Positions 439-14,639 of a stretch of DNA of 40,577 nt are shown one piece after another. Source of the DNA: Rhodobiaceae bacterium (GTDB lineage: Bacteria > Pseudomonadota > Alphaproteobacteria > Rhizobiales > Aestuariivirgaceae); assembly GCA_009885825.1 (NCBI GenBank), contig VFJY01000013.1:1-40577 (forward strand), read 5' to 3'. The notes under the pieces were generated by a model, which was not told the DNA's origin, did not search any database, and saw nothing but the letters and a program-made list of their open reading frames with translations. Position 1 is the first letter of the stretch, and every line of letters starts with the position of its first letter. The position numbers and the translations under genes are program-made.

Positions 439-513
439 TTAACGCAGGCCGAAAAACGACAACACTGCCAAAATTATAACGACAGCGCCGACGAGGTAAA
501 CAATGCTGTTCAT
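439..513 (-). CDS. 24-residue single-span membrane microprotein
   Basis: This encodes a 24-residue peptide that is almost entirely one hydrophobic helix, starting MNSIVYLVGAVVII and ending with the short motif SFFGLR. Very short proteins of this pattern (one helix, then FFGLR) recur in Rhizobiales genomes, usually as hypothetical or missed genes; that is recollection, not a search result. The start is well supported: GGAGG lies 7 bases before the ATG at 513. An exact EcfG promoter (minus strand, 543-568, 17-base spacer) ends about 30 bases upstream, leaving a leader of roughly 20 bases. A role in envelope stress is inferred from the promoter alone. A longer frame reading through from 621 has no ribosome site and is not preferred. 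Confidence 0.75.
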   Translation of the reverse strand: MNSIVYLVGAVVIILAVLSFFGLR

Positions 514-542
514 GATGCAGCCTCCATTGATGACTGTTTCGT

Positions 543-568
543 AACGCAGCTTGAATGGAATTGGTTCC
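543..568 (-). promoter_or_regulatory. EcfG-type stress promoter for the 24-residue microprotein
   Basis: On the minus strand GGAAC (568-564) and CGTT (546-543) are separated by 17 bases. This matches the alphaproteobacterial general stress sigma factor consensus (GGAAC, 16-17 bases, CGTT). The start codon at 513 lies 30 bases downstream. Confidence 0.8.
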
Positions 569-4359: not shown

Positions 4360-4746
4360 ATGCTCGATGATTTACGCATAATGTTGCTGGAGGATGAGCC
4401 GCTCGTCGCAATGGAGCTTGCGGAAATAATTTCGACCGCGGGAGGCACCGTTGCGGCCTCGATCCAGACTGCGCAAGAAGCCCTCGGATTTTCTGACAAA
4501 ACCAATATAGATGTTGCGATATTTGATGTTCACCTGCGCGCTGGAACCTCCTTCGAAGTGGCCGAAGCGTTGACGGAGTTGGAAATTCCTTTTGTTTTCT
4601 GCACAGGAGACGGCCAGGACCAGCGCCGTGTTGCGAACTGGCCAGACGTGCCTGTGATTGTGAAGCCTTACAGAGCCAGTGTGGTTGTTGAGACTCTTTC
4701 GGAGTTAATGCGGAATCGAAATCAGCGGCACCCGGGAACTGCCTGA
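4360..4746 (+). CDS. Stand-alone response regulator receiver
   Basis: A 128-residue single receiver domain. The acidic pair is Glu11/Asp12, the phospho-acceptor is Asp56 (VAIFDVHL), the switch residue is Thr82 and the conserved lysine is Lys102 (VIVKPY). Around Thr82 the sequence FCTGDG resembles the FATGYG-type signature of small regulators such as SdrG and MrrA, which relay phosphate in alphaproteobacterial stress signalling; the match is partial. There is no output domain, so it must act through protein contact or phosphotransfer. It lies 37 bases after the HWE kinase on the same strand and probably shares its transcript. It may act as a shuttle or phosphate sink between that kinase and PhyR. 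Confidence 0.87.
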   Translation: MLDDLRIMLLEDEPLVAMELAEIISTAGGTVAASIQTAQEALGFSDKTNIDVAIFDVHLRAGTSFEVAEALTELEIPFVFCTGDGQDQRRVANWPDVPVIVKPYRASVVVETLSELMRNRNQRHPGTA

Positions 4747-6599: not shown

Positions 6600-6624
6600 G
6601 GAACTGATCGGGCGCTGCCCCGTT
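6600..6624 (+). promoter_or_regulatory. EcfG-type stress promoter for the holin-like operon
   Basis: GGAAC (6600-6604), 16 bases, CGTT (6621-6624). This exact match precedes a three-gene run (6676-7818) with gaps of one and two bases. Confidence 0.87.
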
Positions 6625-9021: not shown

Positions 9022-9180
9022 TTAGAGCTTGCCCATCAGAACCAGAACGAGGATCACGACCAGAACCAAGCCCAGGCCCCCCGATGGTCCGTAGCCCCAG
9101 CTTCGGCTGTGGCCCCAATTTGGCAGCGCGCCGACCAGGATCAGTATCAATATGATGATGAGAATAGTGCCGAGCGTCAT
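9022..9180 (-). CDS. DUF3309 small membrane protein
   Basis: A 52-residue protein of two hydrophobic helices (about 3-18 and 34-51) joined by a polar loop containing NWGHSRSWGYGPSGG. This loop is the hallmark of the DUF3309 family. The real start at 9180 has GGAGGAGA a few bases upstream; the longer frame starting at 9309 is not supported. The -10 element of the EcfG promoter (CGTT at 9219-9216) lies 36 bases upstream. The AI-2E permease follows 18 bases downstream. No biochemical function is established for the family. Confidence 0.9.
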   Translation of the reverse strand: MTLGTILIIILILILVGALPNWGHSRSWGYGPSGGLGLVLVVILVLVLMGKL

Positions 9181-9265: not shown

Positions 9266-9826
9266 TCAGGATTTGGGCGGCATTTCCACAGCATCGAGGC
9301 GCTTGTCAAAAGCCCCGGGTGTTGGCCCGTCTCCGCCGAGGAGCTGGGCGAGTTTTTCGCGCGCGCGACTGACCCGGCTTTTCACCGTGCCTACTGCTAC
9401 GCCGCAGATCCCAGCTGCTTCCTGGTACGAGAAACCAGACGCGCCGACCAGAACTATGGCTTCACGCTGATCATCCGGCAATTGGGCAAGCGCCACTTGC
9501 AATTCAGCCATTTCGAGATGGCTTTCCTGCCCGCCGGAAACCGCGACCGCGCCGGCATACACGCCATCGGCATCCTCGACCTCGCGGCGGCGCTTGCGGA
9601 TGTGGGTATAGAATTCATTGCGGAGGATCGTGAAAAGCCAGGCCCGGAGATTGGTGCCCAACTGATAACTGTCGTGGTGGTTCCATGCCTTCATCAGTGT
9701 TTCCTGCACCAGATCATCAGCCCGGTCGGGTCGCGCGGTGAGCGACATGCCAAAGGCCCGCAGGCCCGGTATTGCCGCGATCAGTCCATCACGGAATTCG
9801 CTGGATACAGGCGATTTGCCTTCCAA
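9266..9826 (-). CDS. ecfG: EcfG-type general stress sigma factor
   Basis: A 186-residue ECF sigma factor. Region 2 (about 14-80) has RADDLVQETLMKAW (about 35-48) and LRAWLFTILRNEF. Region 4 (about 103-152) has LPDDQREAIVLVGASGFSYQEAA and VGTVKSRVSRAREKL, the helix-turn-helix that reads the -35 GGAAC. The ECF15/EcfG assignment rests on this sequence and on linkage to nepR and phyR. Its targets should be the GGAAC-N16/17-CGTT promoters listed here. The start codon is TTG, preceded 9 bases away by AAGGA, which lies in the last codons of nepR (five-base gap); no ATG is available. Translation is therefore coupled to nepR and probably inefficient, which would keep the sigma factor at or below its anti-sigma factor. 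Confidence 0.95.
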   Translation of the reverse strand: MEGKSPVSSEFRDGLIAAIPGLRAFGMSLTARPDRADDLVQETLMKAWNHHDSYQLGTNLRAWLFTILRNEFYTHIRKRRREVEDADGVYAGAVAVSGGQESHLEMAELQVALAQLPDDQREAIVLVGASGFSYQEAAGICGVAVGTVKSRVSRAREKLAQLLGGDGPTPGAFDKRLDAVEMPPKS

Positions 9827-9831
9827 GTTGA

Positions 9832-10047
9832 TTAATCCTTCTTGGCCGTTTTGGCTTCCAGCTGTATCAGCAGATCCATAAATCGATCCGGCACTGGCTG
9901 TTTTGCAACATCGTCGTAATAATCGCGCAGGCGACTTCCAATGATGTCATAGACCGGCGGCTTGCTGCCTGTTGCGCTCGTAGTACCTGTCCGGTCAGTC
10001 ATTTTTCTGGACTTGCCTTTTGCTTTATTCTCTGTTTCAGTCATCAT
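9832..10047 (-). CDS. nepR: NepR anti-sigma factor
   Basis: A 71-residue protein. The N-terminus (1-30) is polar and likely disordered. The conserved core spans about 35-64 and includes IGSRLRDYYDDVAKQPVPDR, the two-helix NepR signature that binds EcfG or the sigma-like domain of phosphorylated PhyR. In the partner-switch model, NepR holds EcfG until PhyR~P captures it. Two ATG codons open the frame (10047 and 10044); AGGGGA fits the second slightly better. The gene is first in the nepR-ecfG operon, divergent from phyR across 192 bases, with a near-consensus EcfG promoter upstream that suggests autoregulation. Confidence 0.95.
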   Translation of the reverse strand: MMTETENKAKGKSRKMTDRTGTTSATGSKPPVYDIIGSRLRDYYDDVAKQPVPDRFMDLLIQLEAKTAKKD

Positions 10048-10239: not shown

Positions 10240-11055
10240 ATGAGTCTTGCCACGGATATATTGCCACATTTGCCCTACTTGAGGAGATATGCGCGAGCCC
10301 TTAGCGGCACGCAAAAGGGGGGCGACGCCTATGTGGCGGCGGTTCTTGAGGCCTTGATCGACGATCCGAACGACTTCGACACCTCGTTGGATACCAAGGT
10401 GGCGCTGTACCGCGCCTTTTGCCGGTTGTGGGAATCTGTAACGCTTAATCTCACACTGCATCCAGGCACATCGGATATTCCGGTCAACTCGCCAAAATGG
10501 GCCAAACTGGCGGAACATCGGGTTGCAATAATTCCGCCGCGGGCCCGTGAGGCCTTCCTGTTGGCGGCGGTTGAAGGTTTTTCGCGGCCGGCGATTGCTG
10601 CGATATTGGGCCGCGATGAAGCAGGTGTGGCGAAACTGATTGAGGAGGCTGCCCAAGCCATTGTCGATCAGGTGGCGACCAGCGTGATGATCATCGAAGA
10701 CGAACCACTGATCGCCTTGGATATCCAGTCCATAGTCGAGAATCTCGGCCATACTGTTACAGGCGTTGCCCGCACCCATCGCCAGGCCACGGCGCTGGCG
10801 TCGCAGAATCGGCCAGGTTTGATCCTTGCCGATATTCAGCTCGCTGATGGAAGTTCCGGCATCGAAGCCGTTGACCAAATTCTTACGTCGTTTGAAGTGC
10901 CGGTGATCTTTATCACCGCCTTTCCGGAACGGCTCTTGACGGGTGAACGGCGAGAGCCCGCCTTTCTCATCACCAAGCCGTTTACGCCAGAGATGGTGAA
11001 AGCCGTGGTCAGTCAGGCTCTTTTCTTCGATACGGCGGCGATGATCGCCGCATAA
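10240..11055 (+). CDS. phyR: PhyR anti-anti-sigma response regulator
   Basis: A 271-residue protein in the inverted order typical of PhyR. An N-terminal sigma-like domain (about 1-140: sigma2-like LPYLRRYARALSGTQKGGDA, sigma4-like PPRAREAFLLAAVEGFS) is followed by a C-terminal receiver (about 147-262). In the receiver the acidic pair is Glu153/Asp154, the phospho-acceptor is Asp198 (LILADIQL), Thr226 is in FITAFPE and Lys246 in LITKPF. All key residues are intact. On phosphorylation the sigma-like domain opens and sequesters NepR, freeing EcfG. The start has AAGGGGA 7 bases upstream. Two sensor kinase genes lie within 10 kb; the HWE kinase at 2586 is the more likely phosphodonor by family precedent. 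Confidence 0.97.
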   Translation: MSLATDILPHLPYLRRYARALSGTQKGGDAYVAAVLEALIDDPNDFDTSLDTKVALYRAFCRLWESVTLNLTLHPGTSDIPVNSPKWAKLAEHRVAIIPPRAREAFLLAAVEGFSRPAIAAILGRDEAGVAKLIEEAAQAIVDQVATSVMIIEDEPLIALDIQSIVENLGHTVTGVARTHRQATALASQNRPGLILADIQLADGSSGIEAVDQILTSFEVPVIFITAFPERLLTGERREPAFLITKPFTPEMVKAVVSQALFFDTAAMIAA

Positions 11056-11192: not shown

Positions 11193-11390
11193 ATGAACTG
11201 GGATCGCATTGAAGGAAATTGGAAAGAGAATAAAGGCCTCATTAAGCAGAAGTGGGCGGAGCTCACCGATGATGATCTGCTGGCCATTGAAGGCAGCAAG
11301 GACGAACTCGTCGGCCGGCTGCAACAGCGCTACGGCTTGGCCAAAGACAAGGCGAAGCAGGAGATTGACAGCTGGCTGGATGCCGCCTGA
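11193..11390 (+). CDS. CsbD family stress protein
   Basis: A 65-residue hydrophilic helical protein. It matches CsbD along its whole length: MNWDRIEGNWKENKGLIKQ at the start, WAELTDDDLLAIEGSKDELVG in the middle and a final helix with AKQEIDSWL. CsbD proteins are abundant general stress proteins in many bacteria; their molecular role is unsettled. The start has AAGGAGA 7 bases upstream. It is the first gene of a two-gene unit behind an exact EcfG promoter. Confidence 0.95.
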   Translation: MNWDRIEGNWKENKGLIKQKWAELTDDDLLAIEGSKDELVGRLQQRYGLAKDKAKQEIDSWLDAA

Positions 11391-11395
11391 GTCCC

Positions 11396-11665
11396 ATGGT
11401 TTATACTGCCAAGGACTATGATCGCGCGTTGCTCGCACCTGAGGAAGTGTTTGAATCGCCAATGGATGTGGTCAACACGGAGTCGCTGACTCCTGAACAA
11501 AAACTGAAAGTTCTCCAGCATTGGGAAGCCAATGGGCGCGACTTGCAGGTGGCCACCGAGGAAAGCATGACAGGACCGGGGCGTTCGCATCTCGGCGAAG
11601 TCAGGCGCGCAATCAACAAATTGTGCGAGACGGCGGATATAGATTTAAGCAGCGCTGCGGATTGA
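11396..11665 (+). CDS. Small conserved hypothetical protein paired with CsbD
   Basis: An 89-residue soluble protein without signal peptide or span. The pattern FESPMDVVNTESLTPEQKLK (about 19-38) followed by VLQHWEANGRDLQVATEESM and an EVRRAINKL helix matches a short protein family I recall from rhizobial stress-gene clusters: a residue stretch around PxDVxxxxxLTxxQKxxxLxxWExD. No function is known. It starts five bases after the csbD stop codon, so it is co-transcribed with csbD from the EcfG promoter. Two hairpins follow it, the second a clear intrinsic terminator. Confidence 0.8.
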   Translation: MVYTAKDYDRALLAPEEVFESPMDVVNTESLTPEQKLKVLQHWEANGRDLQVATEESMTGPGRSHLGEVRRAINKLCETADIDLSSAAD

Positions 11666-11902: not shown

Positions 11903-13738
11903 ATGTTCAAGCCGTGGATCATCAACCAGTTGCCAATCGTGGCCGGGGCACTGCTTGCGGTTGTGGTTGGATTGATGGTATTCTTGGGCTTGGAATACCG
12001 CCTGGAAGTTGGAGCTGTTCAGCGCACACTGGAAGTTGAGAAGAGGCTGTCGCGACTCCTGTCCTCCATTCAGCAAGCGGAGGCCAGCAATCGCGATTTT
12101 CTGCTTACCGGCGATGAAACCTATTTGCAAGGTTACAAAAAGGCTGCCGCCCAGGTCGGCGGCGAATTTGACACCGTAAAAGCGCTTGTTACGGATAACC
12201 CGGAACAAGGCCGCGTCTTAAATAATCTCTGGCCCACAATCGAAAGCCGCCTTGCCCTCTTGGAGGAGGGCATCGCCGTTCGCCGCAGCGGGGGCTTAGA
12301 GCCCGCTGCGCGGTTCGTACAAACCAACATAGGCCGCAATGTCATGATCGAGGTTGGTGCTGGCTTTGGCCAGTTGCAAGAAAACGAGGCCGAACTGCTG
12401 CGCTTGCGCCAAGCCAGCGCACAGCGCTTGATCAATGCGACGTCGATAACTTCGATCGTGGGAATCACTCTGGTCATCCTTTCCGTGGCAGCATGGATTT
12501 GGAGTGTCAGGCGCGACCAGCACCTTCTCATGGCAGCTACAAATGAGCGTCTGCGGGTTGAGGCCCAGATGCGCCAGATGCAAAAGATCGAGGCGCTGGG
12601 TCAGCTGACTGGCGGCATTGCGCATGATTTCAACAATATGCTGGCGGTCGTCATAAGCGGGCTCAGTCTCATCAAGCGTCGTCTGGCTGCTGGAAATACT
12701 GATGTAATGGAACTGGCCGATGCCACCATCGACGGCGCCAACCGCGCTGCTGCGTTGACCGCCAGGCTTATGGCATTCGCGCGCCAGCAACCCCTCGCAC
12801 CACAGGCTGTCGAAATGAACAAGCTGATCGGCGGCATGGGAGAATTGATTGACCGGGCAATTGGTGAAACCATCGCAGTGGAGTTTGTCGGCGGAAGCGG
12901 CTTGTGGCCGATATATGTGGATCCATCGCAACTCGAGAGCGCACTTCTAAATCTATGTGTCAACGCACGAGATGCCATGCCCGACGGGGGTAGGCTCACC
13001 ATTGAAACAAGCAACGACACAATCGACCAGCACCTTGCCCGGCAAATAGACATGCCGGAAGGCCAATACATTTGCATCAGGGTCAGCGATGCGGGCAGCG
13101 GCATGACCCAAGACGTTTTAGCAAGGGCCTTTGATCCGTTTTTCACCACCAAAGACGTGGACAAGGGAACCGGTCTCGGTCTGTCCCAGGTGCACGGCTT
13201 CGTCAAGCAGTCGAGTGGGCATATCAAAATCTATTCTGAGCCGGGACACGGAACAACCATTAAAATCTATTTGCCGCGTCATGACTATGCTGAAGCTGGT
13301 GAACAGCCGGAGGCCATTCCGGCAGCAATTGCTGATCATGGAAAAAATGGCGGCCAGGTTATCCTCGTCGTCGAGGATGACGCGAGGGTGCGCAAGATCA
13401 CCGTGGCGATGTTGCATGAATTGGGTCACACCGTAATCCATGCGGACGGAGCCGCAGCGGCAATGCGCCAGCTCGAGGCCCATCCTGAAATTGCCCTGAT
13501 GTTCACCGACGTGGTGATGCCGGAAACCAATGGCCGCCAGCTCGCCGATCAGGCGCTCATGCGTTGGCCCGACCTCAAAATTCTCTTTACCACAGGCTTC
13601 ACCCGCGACGTCATCCTCCAAGGGGGCGCGCTGAACGAAGACGTCAATTTAATCACCAAGCCTTTCAGTCTCGATCAATTGGCCGTCAAGGTGGGGGTCG
13701 CAATGGACGGCGACAGTCAGAGACAAAGTGCGATTTAG
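11903..13738 (+). CDS. CHASE3 hybrid sensor histidine kinase with receiver
   Basis: A 611-residue inner-membrane kinase. It has a first span (about 9-30), a periplasmic CHASE3-type domain (about 35-172, with the family motif ASNRDFLLTGDETYLQGY), a second span (about 178-201), and a HisKA domain with the phospho-accepting His near 240 in GGIAHDFNNML. The ATPase domain has NLCVNARDAMPDGG (N box), SDAGSGM and KGTGLGLSQVHG (G boxes). The C-terminal receiver (about 486-600) has the phospho-acceptor Asp in MFTDVVMPE (about 534) and Lys in LITKPF. This is the common alphaproteobacterial hybrid kinase that passes phosphate within the protein. The extracellular cue and downstream partner are unknown; its place inside the stress locus suggests an accessory input. 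No EcfG promoter was seen upstream, and the ribosome site is weak. Confidence 0.92.
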   Translation: MFKPWIINQLPIVAGALLAVVVGLMVFLGLEYRLEVGAVQRTLEVEKRLSRLLSSIQQAEASNRDFLLTGDETYLQGYKKAAAQVGGEFDTVKALVTDNPEQGRVLNNLWPTIESRLALLEEGIAVRRSGGLEPAARFVQTNIGRNVMIEVGAGFGQLQENEAELLRLRQASAQRLINATSITSIVGITLVILSVAAWIWSVRRDQHLLMAATNERLRVEAQMRQMQKIEALGQLTGGIAHDFNNMLAVVISGLSLIKRRLAAGNTDVMELADATIDGANRAAALTARLMAFARQQPLAPQAVEMNKLIGGMGELIDRAIGETIAVEFVGGSGLWPIYVDPSQLESALLNLCVNARDAMPDGGRLTIETSNDTIDQHLARQIDMPEGQYICIRVSDAGSGMTQDVLARAFDPFFTTKDVDKGTGLGLSQVHGFVKQSSGHIKIYSEPGHGTTIKIYLPRHDYAEAGEQPEAIPAAIADHGKNGGQVILVVEDDARVRKITVAMLHELGHTVIHADGAAAAMRQLEAHPEIALMFTDVVMPETNGRQLADQALMRWPDLKILFTTGFTRDVILQGGALNEDVNLITKPFSLDQLAVKVGVAMDGDSQRQSAI

Positions 13739-13750
13739 AAACCTGAGCCC

Positions 13751-13775
13751 GGAACCATGGTTTGGTTTCGGCGTT
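13751..13775 (+). promoter_or_regulatory. Orphan EcfG-type promoter
   Basis: GGAAC (13751-13755), 16 bases, CGTT (13772-13775): an exact match starting 13 bases after the hybrid kinase stop codon. No plus-strand gene follows before 14562. The next element is a perfect hairpin at 13828-13858, then the 3' end of a minus-strand gene. Confidence 0.8.
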
Positions 13776-13781
13776 TCGCCA

Positions 13782-13873
13782 GGTCAACTTATGGAGAAGT
13801 GCCAAGGGGCGCACCTCGCAGCCGGGCTGCCAGGGAGAAAGACTGTTTCTCCCTGGCAATACTGTGTATTTTT
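13782..13873 (+). ncRNA. Candidate stress-induced small RNA
   Basis: Ends are approximate. Transcription from the EcfG promoter at 13751-13775 would start near 13782 and reach the 13-bp hairpin at 13828-13858. A run of five T residues (13869-13873) lies ten bases after the hairpin. The product would be about 80-90 bases. The only frame in it opens at an ATG near 13790 without a ribosome site and continues antisense through the neighbouring gene, so a coding role is unlikely. A general-stress sRNA of this kind is known from Caulobacter (GsrN). The alternative is antisense transcription into the ferritin-like gene. Confidence 0.45.
13828..13858. terminator. Perfect 13-bp hairpin between convergent genes
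   Basis: TGCCAGGGAGAAA (13828-13840) and TTTCTCCCTGGCA (13846-13858) form a perfect 13-bp stem with a 5-base loop. It lies between the hybrid kinase (plus) and the ferritin-like gene (minus) and can act in both directions. Read on the plus strand, TTTTT follows ten bases later. Confidence 0.7.
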
Positions 13874-14363
13874 AAGCTGCCGCTTTCTGGTTCACTTCGG
13901 GATCTGCCAGTTGCGAAAGTTTTTTGTCCGCAGCGTGCTCCTCATCCAAGGTCATTTGCAGCAGGGACACGGCGTCGCTCATGTCGAGCTCACCGGCCCA
14001 ACACACAAGCGTACCGTAGCGCGCAATTTCATAGTGTTCGACGGTCTGGGCTGAGGCAATGATAGCTGCGTCTCGCGTGTTGGCGTCCTCGATTTCCGCC
14101 ATCACCTCATCGGCTTCCCTAAGCAAGCCGTCGAGGGCTTCGCACTTCTTCGCAACCGGTTTCCAACCCATGACGGAAAACACCTTCTCAAGGCGTTCAA
14201 CATGGGCCTCGGTCTCTCCCAAGTGGGCTTTGATCGCCGCCTTCAGTTCAGGGCTCGCGGCTTTAGTGGCCATTTTGGGAAGCGTCTTTACCAGCTTCTT
14301 CTCAGCGTAATAGATGTCCTTCAGGGTTTCGTGAAACAGGTCTTCCAGTGTTTTTACAGCCAT
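13872..14363 (-). CDS. DUF892 ferritin-like stress protein (YciE/YciF type)
   Basis: A 163-residue all-helical protein, full length for the DUF892 family. It opens with KTLEDLFHETLKDIYYAEKK (about 4-23). It carries the Glu/His metal-ligand pattern of ferritin-like four-helix bundles: helix 2 with HLGETEAHVERLEKVF (about 47-62), helix 3 with QTVEHYEIARYGTL (about 105-118), helix 4 with DEEHAADKKLSQL (about 139-151). Family members bind a di-iron centre and are induced by stress; a role in iron or peroxide handling is likely but unproven here. The start has AGGAGG a few bases upstream. A near-consensus EcfG promoter (TGTT -10) lies 86 bases before it. An exact EcfG promoter points at its 3' end from the opposite strand. 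Confidence 0.92.
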   Translation of the reverse strand: MAVKTLEDLFHETLKDIYYAEKKLVKTLPKMATKAASPELKAAIKAHLGETEAHVERLEKVFSVMGWKPVAKKCEALDGLLREADEVMAEIEDANTRDAAIIASAQTVEHYEIARYGTLVCWAGELDMSDAVSLLQMTLDEEHAADKKLSQLADPEVNQKAAA

Positions 14364-14448: not shown

Positions 14449-14473
14449 AACACATGGAGGAAGCGATAGTTCC
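14449..14473 (-). promoter_or_regulatory. Near-consensus EcfG promoter for the ferritin-like gene
   Basis: On the minus strand GGAAC (14473-14469), 16 bases, then TGTT (14452-14449) in place of CGTT. The same changed -10 is seen at phyR. The start codon is 86 bases downstream. Confidence 0.55.
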
Positions 14474-14503: not shown

Positions 14504-14528
14504 GGAACGATTGGCCGGATGCGGCGTT
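14504..14528 (+). promoter_or_regulatory. EcfG-type stress promoter for the 25-residue microprotein
   Basis: GGAAC (14504-14508), 16 bases, CGTT (14525-14528). This exact match lies 33 bases before the start codon at 14562. Confidence 0.85.
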
Positions 14529-14561: not shown

Positions 14562-14639
14562 ATGCGCGGAATACTTTTGTGGCTGGTTGGAATTCCCATT
14601 CCCATTATCATCGGCCTCTACCTTTTTGATATCCTGTAG
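14562..14639 (+). CDS. 25-residue membrane microprotein
   Basis: A 25-residue peptide, nearly all one hydrophobic helix, with the motif LLWLVGIPIPIIIGLYLF. Short proteins with the same IPIPII core occur widely in proteobacteria, generally without a name; this is recollection rather than a search. Start support comes from AGAGGTG 6 bases upstream and from an exact EcfG promoter placed to give a leader of about 25 bases. Its strand and spacing suggest co-transcription with the small gene at 14672. It is the second microprotein in the window with its own stress promoter. The function is unknown; insertion into the inner membrane is likely. Confidence 0.78.
   Translation: MRGILLWLVGIPIPIIIGLYLFDIL

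Follow-up and report, generated by a model that had tools for sequence, protein, structure and literature searches.

Non-coding RNAs driven by the general stress sigma factor EcfG, both small RNAs (sRNAs) and antisense RNAs, are already a known kind according to the accounts in PMC3892343 and PMC3616915. ReC64 of Rhizobium etli is an EcfG1-dependent RNA of 88 nt whose gene follows the kinase gene tcrY, beside phyR in the ecfG1-phyR region; it was characterized by Northern blot, rapid amplification of cDNA 5' ends (5' RACE), mutants and a reporter fusion in Escherichia coli with plasmid-borne EcfG, and its mapped 5' end agrees with the promoter consensus (PMC3892343). A Northern blot of ReC64 is presented in PMC2881028 as well. 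Caulobacter GsrN has a length of about 100 nt with a hairpin at its end and acts via a C-rich 5' loop with six cytosines. Its predicted homologues are described as having a C-rich 5' loop in common and as being typically located near the general stress response (GSR) locus (not in C. crescentus), and the sigma-T promoter elements are given as GGAAC and CGTT (PMC5869019). In Sinorhizobium meliloti, 40 antisense RNAs and 23 sRNAs are reported to be preceded by sigma-E2 motifs (PMC3616915). Terminators between converging genes are stated to work often on both strands in Escherichia coli and to be overrepresented in Zymomonas mobilis (PMC7566282). Here we analysed a putative transcript of this kind in a stretch of 40,577 nt from a Rhodobiaceae bacterium (contig VFJY01000013.1, assembly GCA_009885825.1), called the window in the following. 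An exact EcfG promoter is located there in the 133-nt gap between a sensor-kinase gene and a converging DUF892 gene, together with a perfect hairpin. The first-pass annotation had read promoter, hairpin and a subsequent T run as a candidate sRNA gene in the role of GsrN, which could also act as cis-antisense to DUF892. We favour, with a probability of about 0.48, a working EcfG promoter from which a short non-coding RNA would run into the 3' hairpin of DUF892 and exert a local effect. The features of the gap and its surroundings are:

11903-13738, plus strand: CHASE3 - histidine kinase - receiver gene, ending 12 nt before the promoter (PF05227, PF02518, PF00072; PF00512 just below the cut-off)
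13751-13775, plus strand: EcfG-type promoter, exact consensus GGAAC-N16-CGTT, no gene close behind
13782-13827, plus strand: 5' part of the predicted transcript, unstructured (z 0.07), its start placed from the promoter
13828-13858: perfect 13-bp hairpin, most likely the DUF892 3' hairpin, possibly acting on both strands
13869-13873, plus strand: T run, 10 nt past the stem, running into the DUF892 stop codon
13872-14363, minus strand: DUF892 gene, convergent with the kinase gene (PF05974, E 7.4e-58)
14449-14473, minus strand: EcfG-like site ahead of DUF892, GGAAC-N16-TGTT, with a single mismatch to the consensus

The promoter was confirmed letter for letter and begins 12 nt past the stop codon of the kinase gene. 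Exact N16 sites are rare: the genome of 3.28 Mb holds 31, compared with 94 occurrences of a reversed control pattern, and ten of the 31 lie within the 40.6 kb of the window, i.e. in 1.2 % of the genome. With spacers of N15 to N18, 13 sites were present in the window versus a mean of 1.1 in shuffles. The general-stress regulon thus clustered looks like a compact island. Twenty of the 21 sites outside the window were readable: 15 fell into coding or open frames, four preceded a predicted coding sequence (CDS) and one was at a contig end, the gene calls around them being those of a simple gene finder of our own making. Within the window, the exact site at 6600 was inside a predicted CDS, the one at 4735 overlapped the end of a CDS and was followed by a gene, and eight were intergenic. 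Seven of these eight had a same-strand gene behind them; 13751 was the sole exception. Behind site 659, a 129-aa frame with AGGAG before its start had been missed by the simple gene finder. The absence of a plus-strand gene close behind 13751 was borne out, since the next predicted plus-strand CDS begins at 14562 and has its own EcfG site (14504-14528). A hidden small protein was considered and rejected: the frame of 87 aa that starts with the ATG at 13791, antisense to DUF892, has no Pfam match. Mainly because of this rarity and context, the promoter is taken as probably real.

The alternative is an inert or relic site, either a chance match or the remainder of a promoter that lost its gene when the kinase gene and DUF892 came together, with the hairpin forming the 3' end of DUF892 and perhaps of the kinase gene. 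We consider this unlikely, if still to be reckoned with. By arithmetic, the outside rate of 21 sites in 3.24 Mb predicts about 0.26 exact sites per window and fewer in its non-coding gaps, and the same-strand genes behind all other intergenic exact sites of the window also speak against it. So does a weight matrix of spacer and flanks, the fixed core being excluded, for which 25 gene-linked promoters served as training set; they come from the genus (a set of 37 genomes, G000-G036, several of them incomplete; the window is contig G000:C70). Promoter 13751 reached a score of 1.6, which exceeded 16 of the 25 gene-linked promoters (leave-one-out) and each of the 14 sites scored in coding or open frames outside the window (maximum 0.9), albeit with a broad overlap of the two sets. 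The window and 25 genus loci together hold 129 EcfG sites, of which 20 were flagged as orphans, but no orphan rate is given. Several of the 20 are errors of the simple gene finder, which misread the phyR genes of L119, L120 and L122, and another, in L115, heads the small conserved peptide described below.

The hairpin has the sequence TGCCAGGGAGAAA-GACTG-TTTCTCCCTGGCA with 13 of 13 pairs formed. It follows the promoter after 52 nt, in agreement with the roughly 50 bases given before. The predicted transcript of 92 nt folds at -39.4 kcal/mol (z -3.7). Its 5' part was equalled or surpassed by 103 of 200 dinucleotide shuffles, whereas the hairpin part (z -6.94) beat every shuffle; thus all excess structure of the transcript resides in the hairpin. 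A scan of the window with Rfam at gathering scores had a tRNA (31-104) as sole match and none at the promoter-hairpin element.

Hairpins of this kind were frequent behind DUF892 genes. From 28 places in the genus, the window and 26 other copies were obtained after a G014 copy holding a stop was dropped, further copies from a separate later listing lying outside this set; 39 places outside the genus provided 27 order-level copies with locus. Shuffles preserved the base composition only (mononucleotide; 40 per genus copy, 20 per order-level copy). In 20 of the 26 other genus copies, a hairpin was present 4-33 nt past the stop codon and equalled by at most one of 40 shuffles; the window hairpin begins 13 nt past the stop. 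Among the 27 order-level copies, 16 had a hairpin no more than 35 nt away that was matched by one of 20 shuffles at most, and four had one further off. The closest copy, in G023 (74 % identical), has the stem GGGAGAGGC...GCCTCTCCC with the GGGAGA arm in common, followed by T's in DUF892 direction; the G012 copy (63 %) has GAGGAGAAGC...GCTTCTCCTC. The same purine-rich kind of arm suggests a common descent of these hairpins. Because a hairpin is found behind most of the other DUF892 copies examined and an exact promoter behind none of them, the hairpin belongs with DUF892 and not with the promoter, and it is most likely the gene's own 3' end. The view of it as part of an sRNA gene is therefore not supported.

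In the explanation we prefer, the EcfG promoter would start a short non-coding transcript at about 13782 under general stress, head-on to DUF892. The same sigma factor would switch on DUF892 via the EcfG-like site 14449-14473, so both strands would be on together. EcfG control of DUF892 had been presumed in the first-pass annotation; EcfG-like sites within 300 nt upstream were seen in 16 of the 27 order-level copies, too. Polymerases from both sides would meet at the hairpin, which may end or slow both, and two RNAs with a tail-to-tail overlap of about 50 nt would result. Given the ends predicted for both RNAs, this overlap would fall into the 3' untranslated region (UTR) of DUF892. Of the overlap with the DUF892 3' end claimed before, this UTR part holds; the coding part is touched at the stop codon (13872-13874) only. 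The likeliest effect would be a local one, an insulation of the converging genes and a modest tuning of the DUF892 mRNA ends by collision or duplex formation; an action in trans on distant mRNAs is less likely. The sequences themselves show the promoter motif and how rare it is, the hairpin, the geometry and the equivalent hairpins of relatives; we infer from them that the promoter works, where its transcript starts, that this ends at the hairpin and that DUF892 is affected. A stricter version, rather improbable in our view, would be an incoherent feed-forward loop with a borrowed terminator: EcfG drives DUF892 together with an opposing short RNA that pairs or collides at the 3' end and thereby limits the product, which we take, with the first-pass annotation, to be ferritin-like.

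Several observations weigh against a functional short transcript at this place. The window hairpin lacks a T run on the DUF892 side, and that of the plus side is distant; since T runs are absent or distant, termination at the hairpin is uncertain on either strand. The hairpin flanks are GCCCGG on the minus side and ATACTGTGTATTTTT on the plus side, with a U-tract directly after the stem on neither strand. The succession of hairpin and T run described before is present, but with the 10-nt gap it is not a textbook terminator, and because of this gap the terminator scan called none at 13828-13858 on either strand. The small matrix has little power of separation: the score of the best chance site is not exceeded by about 15 of the 25 gene-linked promoters, and values of -5.9 or lower were obtained for four other sites of the window, although three of these precede genes. 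Six of the 26 genus DUF892 copies had no such close hairpin (two with a comparable one at 64-70 nt, four with a best hairpin equalled by 5-20 of 40 shuffles), and neither had 11 of the 27 order-level copies.

The arrangement was also absent from all other genomes examined. A DNA search with the element retrieved none of 60 relatives, which are distant, the nearest PhyR of the genus being 68 % identical; the second match in the own genome was the hairpin against its own reverse complement. In the 146-287 nt read behind each of the 26 genus copies, no exact promoter directed at DUF892 was found; one relaxed site, in G036, has the TGTT form and mirrors another EcfG site. Behind the order-level DUF892 copies, 400 nt were read with no exact promoter in 27; L180 has a weak N15/TGTT site. 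None of 83 kinase relatives had an exact promoter behind it and three had one with N15 or N17, in a set that counts one kinase doubly (L005, L129) and has many of its loci from beyond the Alphaproteobacteria, in bacteria not expected to have EcfG. A kinase gene adjoining DUF892 was present in no examined relative locus, only in this genome. The lack of conservation in these genomes also fits a chance or decaying site, and a relic would likewise account for the unstructured 5' part of the RNA and for a kinase-DUF892 neighbourhood restricted to this genome. Taking the promoter as working, the best reading of these comparisons is a lineage-specific EcfG transcript.

A 13-bp hairpin usually at least slows the polymerase. 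This speaks against a long antisense RNA that would pass the hairpin, run through DUF892 and reach the small genes at 14562 and 14672, for which 13751 would then be an additional, distal EcfG promoter. No terminator was called on the plus strand, and these downstream plus-strand genes are themselves behind an EcfG site, as befits such a transcript; however, they already have a close EcfG site at 14504, and the exact arrangement occurred at no DUF892 copy examined. We regard the long RNA as improbable.

The first of these small genes, 14562-14639 (plus strand), encodes a membrane-like peptide of 25 aa, MRGILLWLVGIPIPIIIGLYLFDIL, behind the EcfG site 14504-14528 and divergent from DUF892. A peptide pattern revealed relatives in seven of 25 other genus loci (L110, L111, L115, L121, L125, L126, L127), six of them with an EcfG-like site ahead, and in none of 16 named loci scanned; the peptide has no Pfam match. 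It is a candidate for a conserved general-stress microprotein. At 439-568 (minus strand), an EcfG site with N17 spacing (543-568, minus strand) precedes, as judged by eye, another tiny membrane-like peptide, MNSIVYLVGAVVIILAVLSFFGLR.

The window as a whole contains a GSR locus of the alphaproteobacterial type in the order DUF3309, EcfG, NepR, PhyR, CsbD, small gene, CHASE3 kinase-receiver and DUF892. In addition to the features listed above, it comprises:

9022-9180, minus strand: DUF3309
9266-9826, minus strand: EcfG sigma factor (sigma-70 regions 2 and 4), so named because it adjoins nepR and phyR
9832-10047, minus strand: NepR anti-sigma factor (PF18557, E 2.1e-14)
10240-11055, plus strand: PhyR anti-anti-sigma response regulator (PF22029, PF22233, PF00072)
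11193-11390, plus strand: CsbD
11396-11665, plus strand: small gene

PhyR (E <= 1e-40) was present in 22 of the 37 genus genomes. DUF892 was over the cut-off in 18 of the 37; all 18 have PhyR, and the 15 PhyR-less genomes have no DUF892. Across the genus, the stress system appears to be gained and lost together with a part of its regulon.

This setting would suit an sRNA in the role of GsrN or ReC64, acting in trans as an 80-92 nt general-stress RNA that ends at the hairpin. The exact promoter would depend on the same sigma factor and has ecfG, nepR and phyR in the same window; the place downstream of a kinase gene and the predicted length resemble ReC64 (PMC3892343), and the predicted homologues of GsrN are described as typical neighbours of the GSR locus (PMC5869019). 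In this respect, the proposal of the first-pass annotation stood, with a credible orphan EcfG promoter within the GSR locus. What is lacking are a C-rich loop, T's close to the stem, a structure of the RNA's own beyond chance and an Rfam match at gathering scores. A C-rich unpaired 5' loop is absent from the window RNA, in which the longest C run has three bases and lies within the stem, and the T's are 10 nt off. Because of these two features, the predicted RNA fails as a member of the GsrN/ReC64 type. In addition, its 5' part folds like shuffles. We consider the trans-acting sRNA quite improbable; a dedicated regulatory sRNA at the gap is possible.

The phyR regions of 16 named genomes served for comparison. 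Seven putative GsrN-type RNAs were recognized by eye in six of them, each with an EcfG site, C runs and a hairpin with T's within about 5 nt of the stem: in Rhizobium Leaf306, R. populisoli, Pararhizobium arenae, Rhodopseudomonas infernalis, Methyloligella GL2 and Microvirga pakistanensis (two), at the loci L220, L221, L222, L227, L230 and L233. The Rhodopseudomonas RNA and one Microvirga RNA have an N17 spacing of the EcfG site. Those of Leaf306 and R. populisoli have runs of five and six C and are directed at an HWE kinase gene that neighbours phyR, facing its 3' end; from their position, they are presumed to be ReC64 homologues. An alignment of all seven was poor (40 % mean column identity). 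The pattern of an EcfG site and CCCCCNNNNCC had no occurrence in the genome of the window, which is a rough test only. The gaps between the post-phyR EcfG site and csbD were rejected as GsrN sites, as a short reading frame was visible inside them (L106, L107, L110; by eye). Two C-rich EcfG matches in the genus (L236, L239) were rejected as sRNAs and look like gene leaders; in G017 and G001, a gene is preceded by a common leader with an EcfG site and a CGGACCCCC..AACCC stretch.

If transcribed, the window RNA would add to the EcfG-dependent non-coding RNAs, and this in a genome for which the rough search for the GsrN-type pattern found none. It would then also exemplify how a hairpin that evolved as the 3' end of one gene comes to serve a new promoter on the opposite strand. 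The case also calls for caution: promoter, hairpin and T run resemble an sRNA gene, yet the neighbour gene alone explains the hairpin.

Among the described RNAs, ReC64 is a closer precedent than Caulobacter GsrN. It has in common with the window RNA the EcfG consensus promoter and the intergenic place after a histidine kinase gene near ecfG-phyR, with 88 nt against a predicted 80-92 nt. ReC64 was measured, however, whereas the window RNA is predicted from the sequence, and the presumed ReC64 homologues point to the 3' end of an HWE kinase gene, whereas the window RNA leads away from a CHASE3 kinase gene. GsrN is similar in the length of about 100 nt and the hairpin at the end; it differs in the C-rich 5' loop, and no similarity in sequence is claimed. 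A single strong hairpin between converging transcripts, both of them predicted in the window, is also the hallmark of two-way intrinsic terminators, but the T run is 10 nt off the stem on the plus strand and missing on the minus side. With the sigma-E2 antisense RNAs of S. meliloti, the locus shares a general-stress sigma motif driving an RNA against a gene on the opposite strand, as promoter 13751 (plus strand) is directed at DUF892 (minus strand). Starts were mapped in S. meliloti; in the window, the overlap would be in the 3' UTR rather than in the coding part, and the target has an EcfG-like site itself. By analogy, an EcfG transcript into the 3' end of a converging gene is likely a new case of the known EcfG-driven kind.
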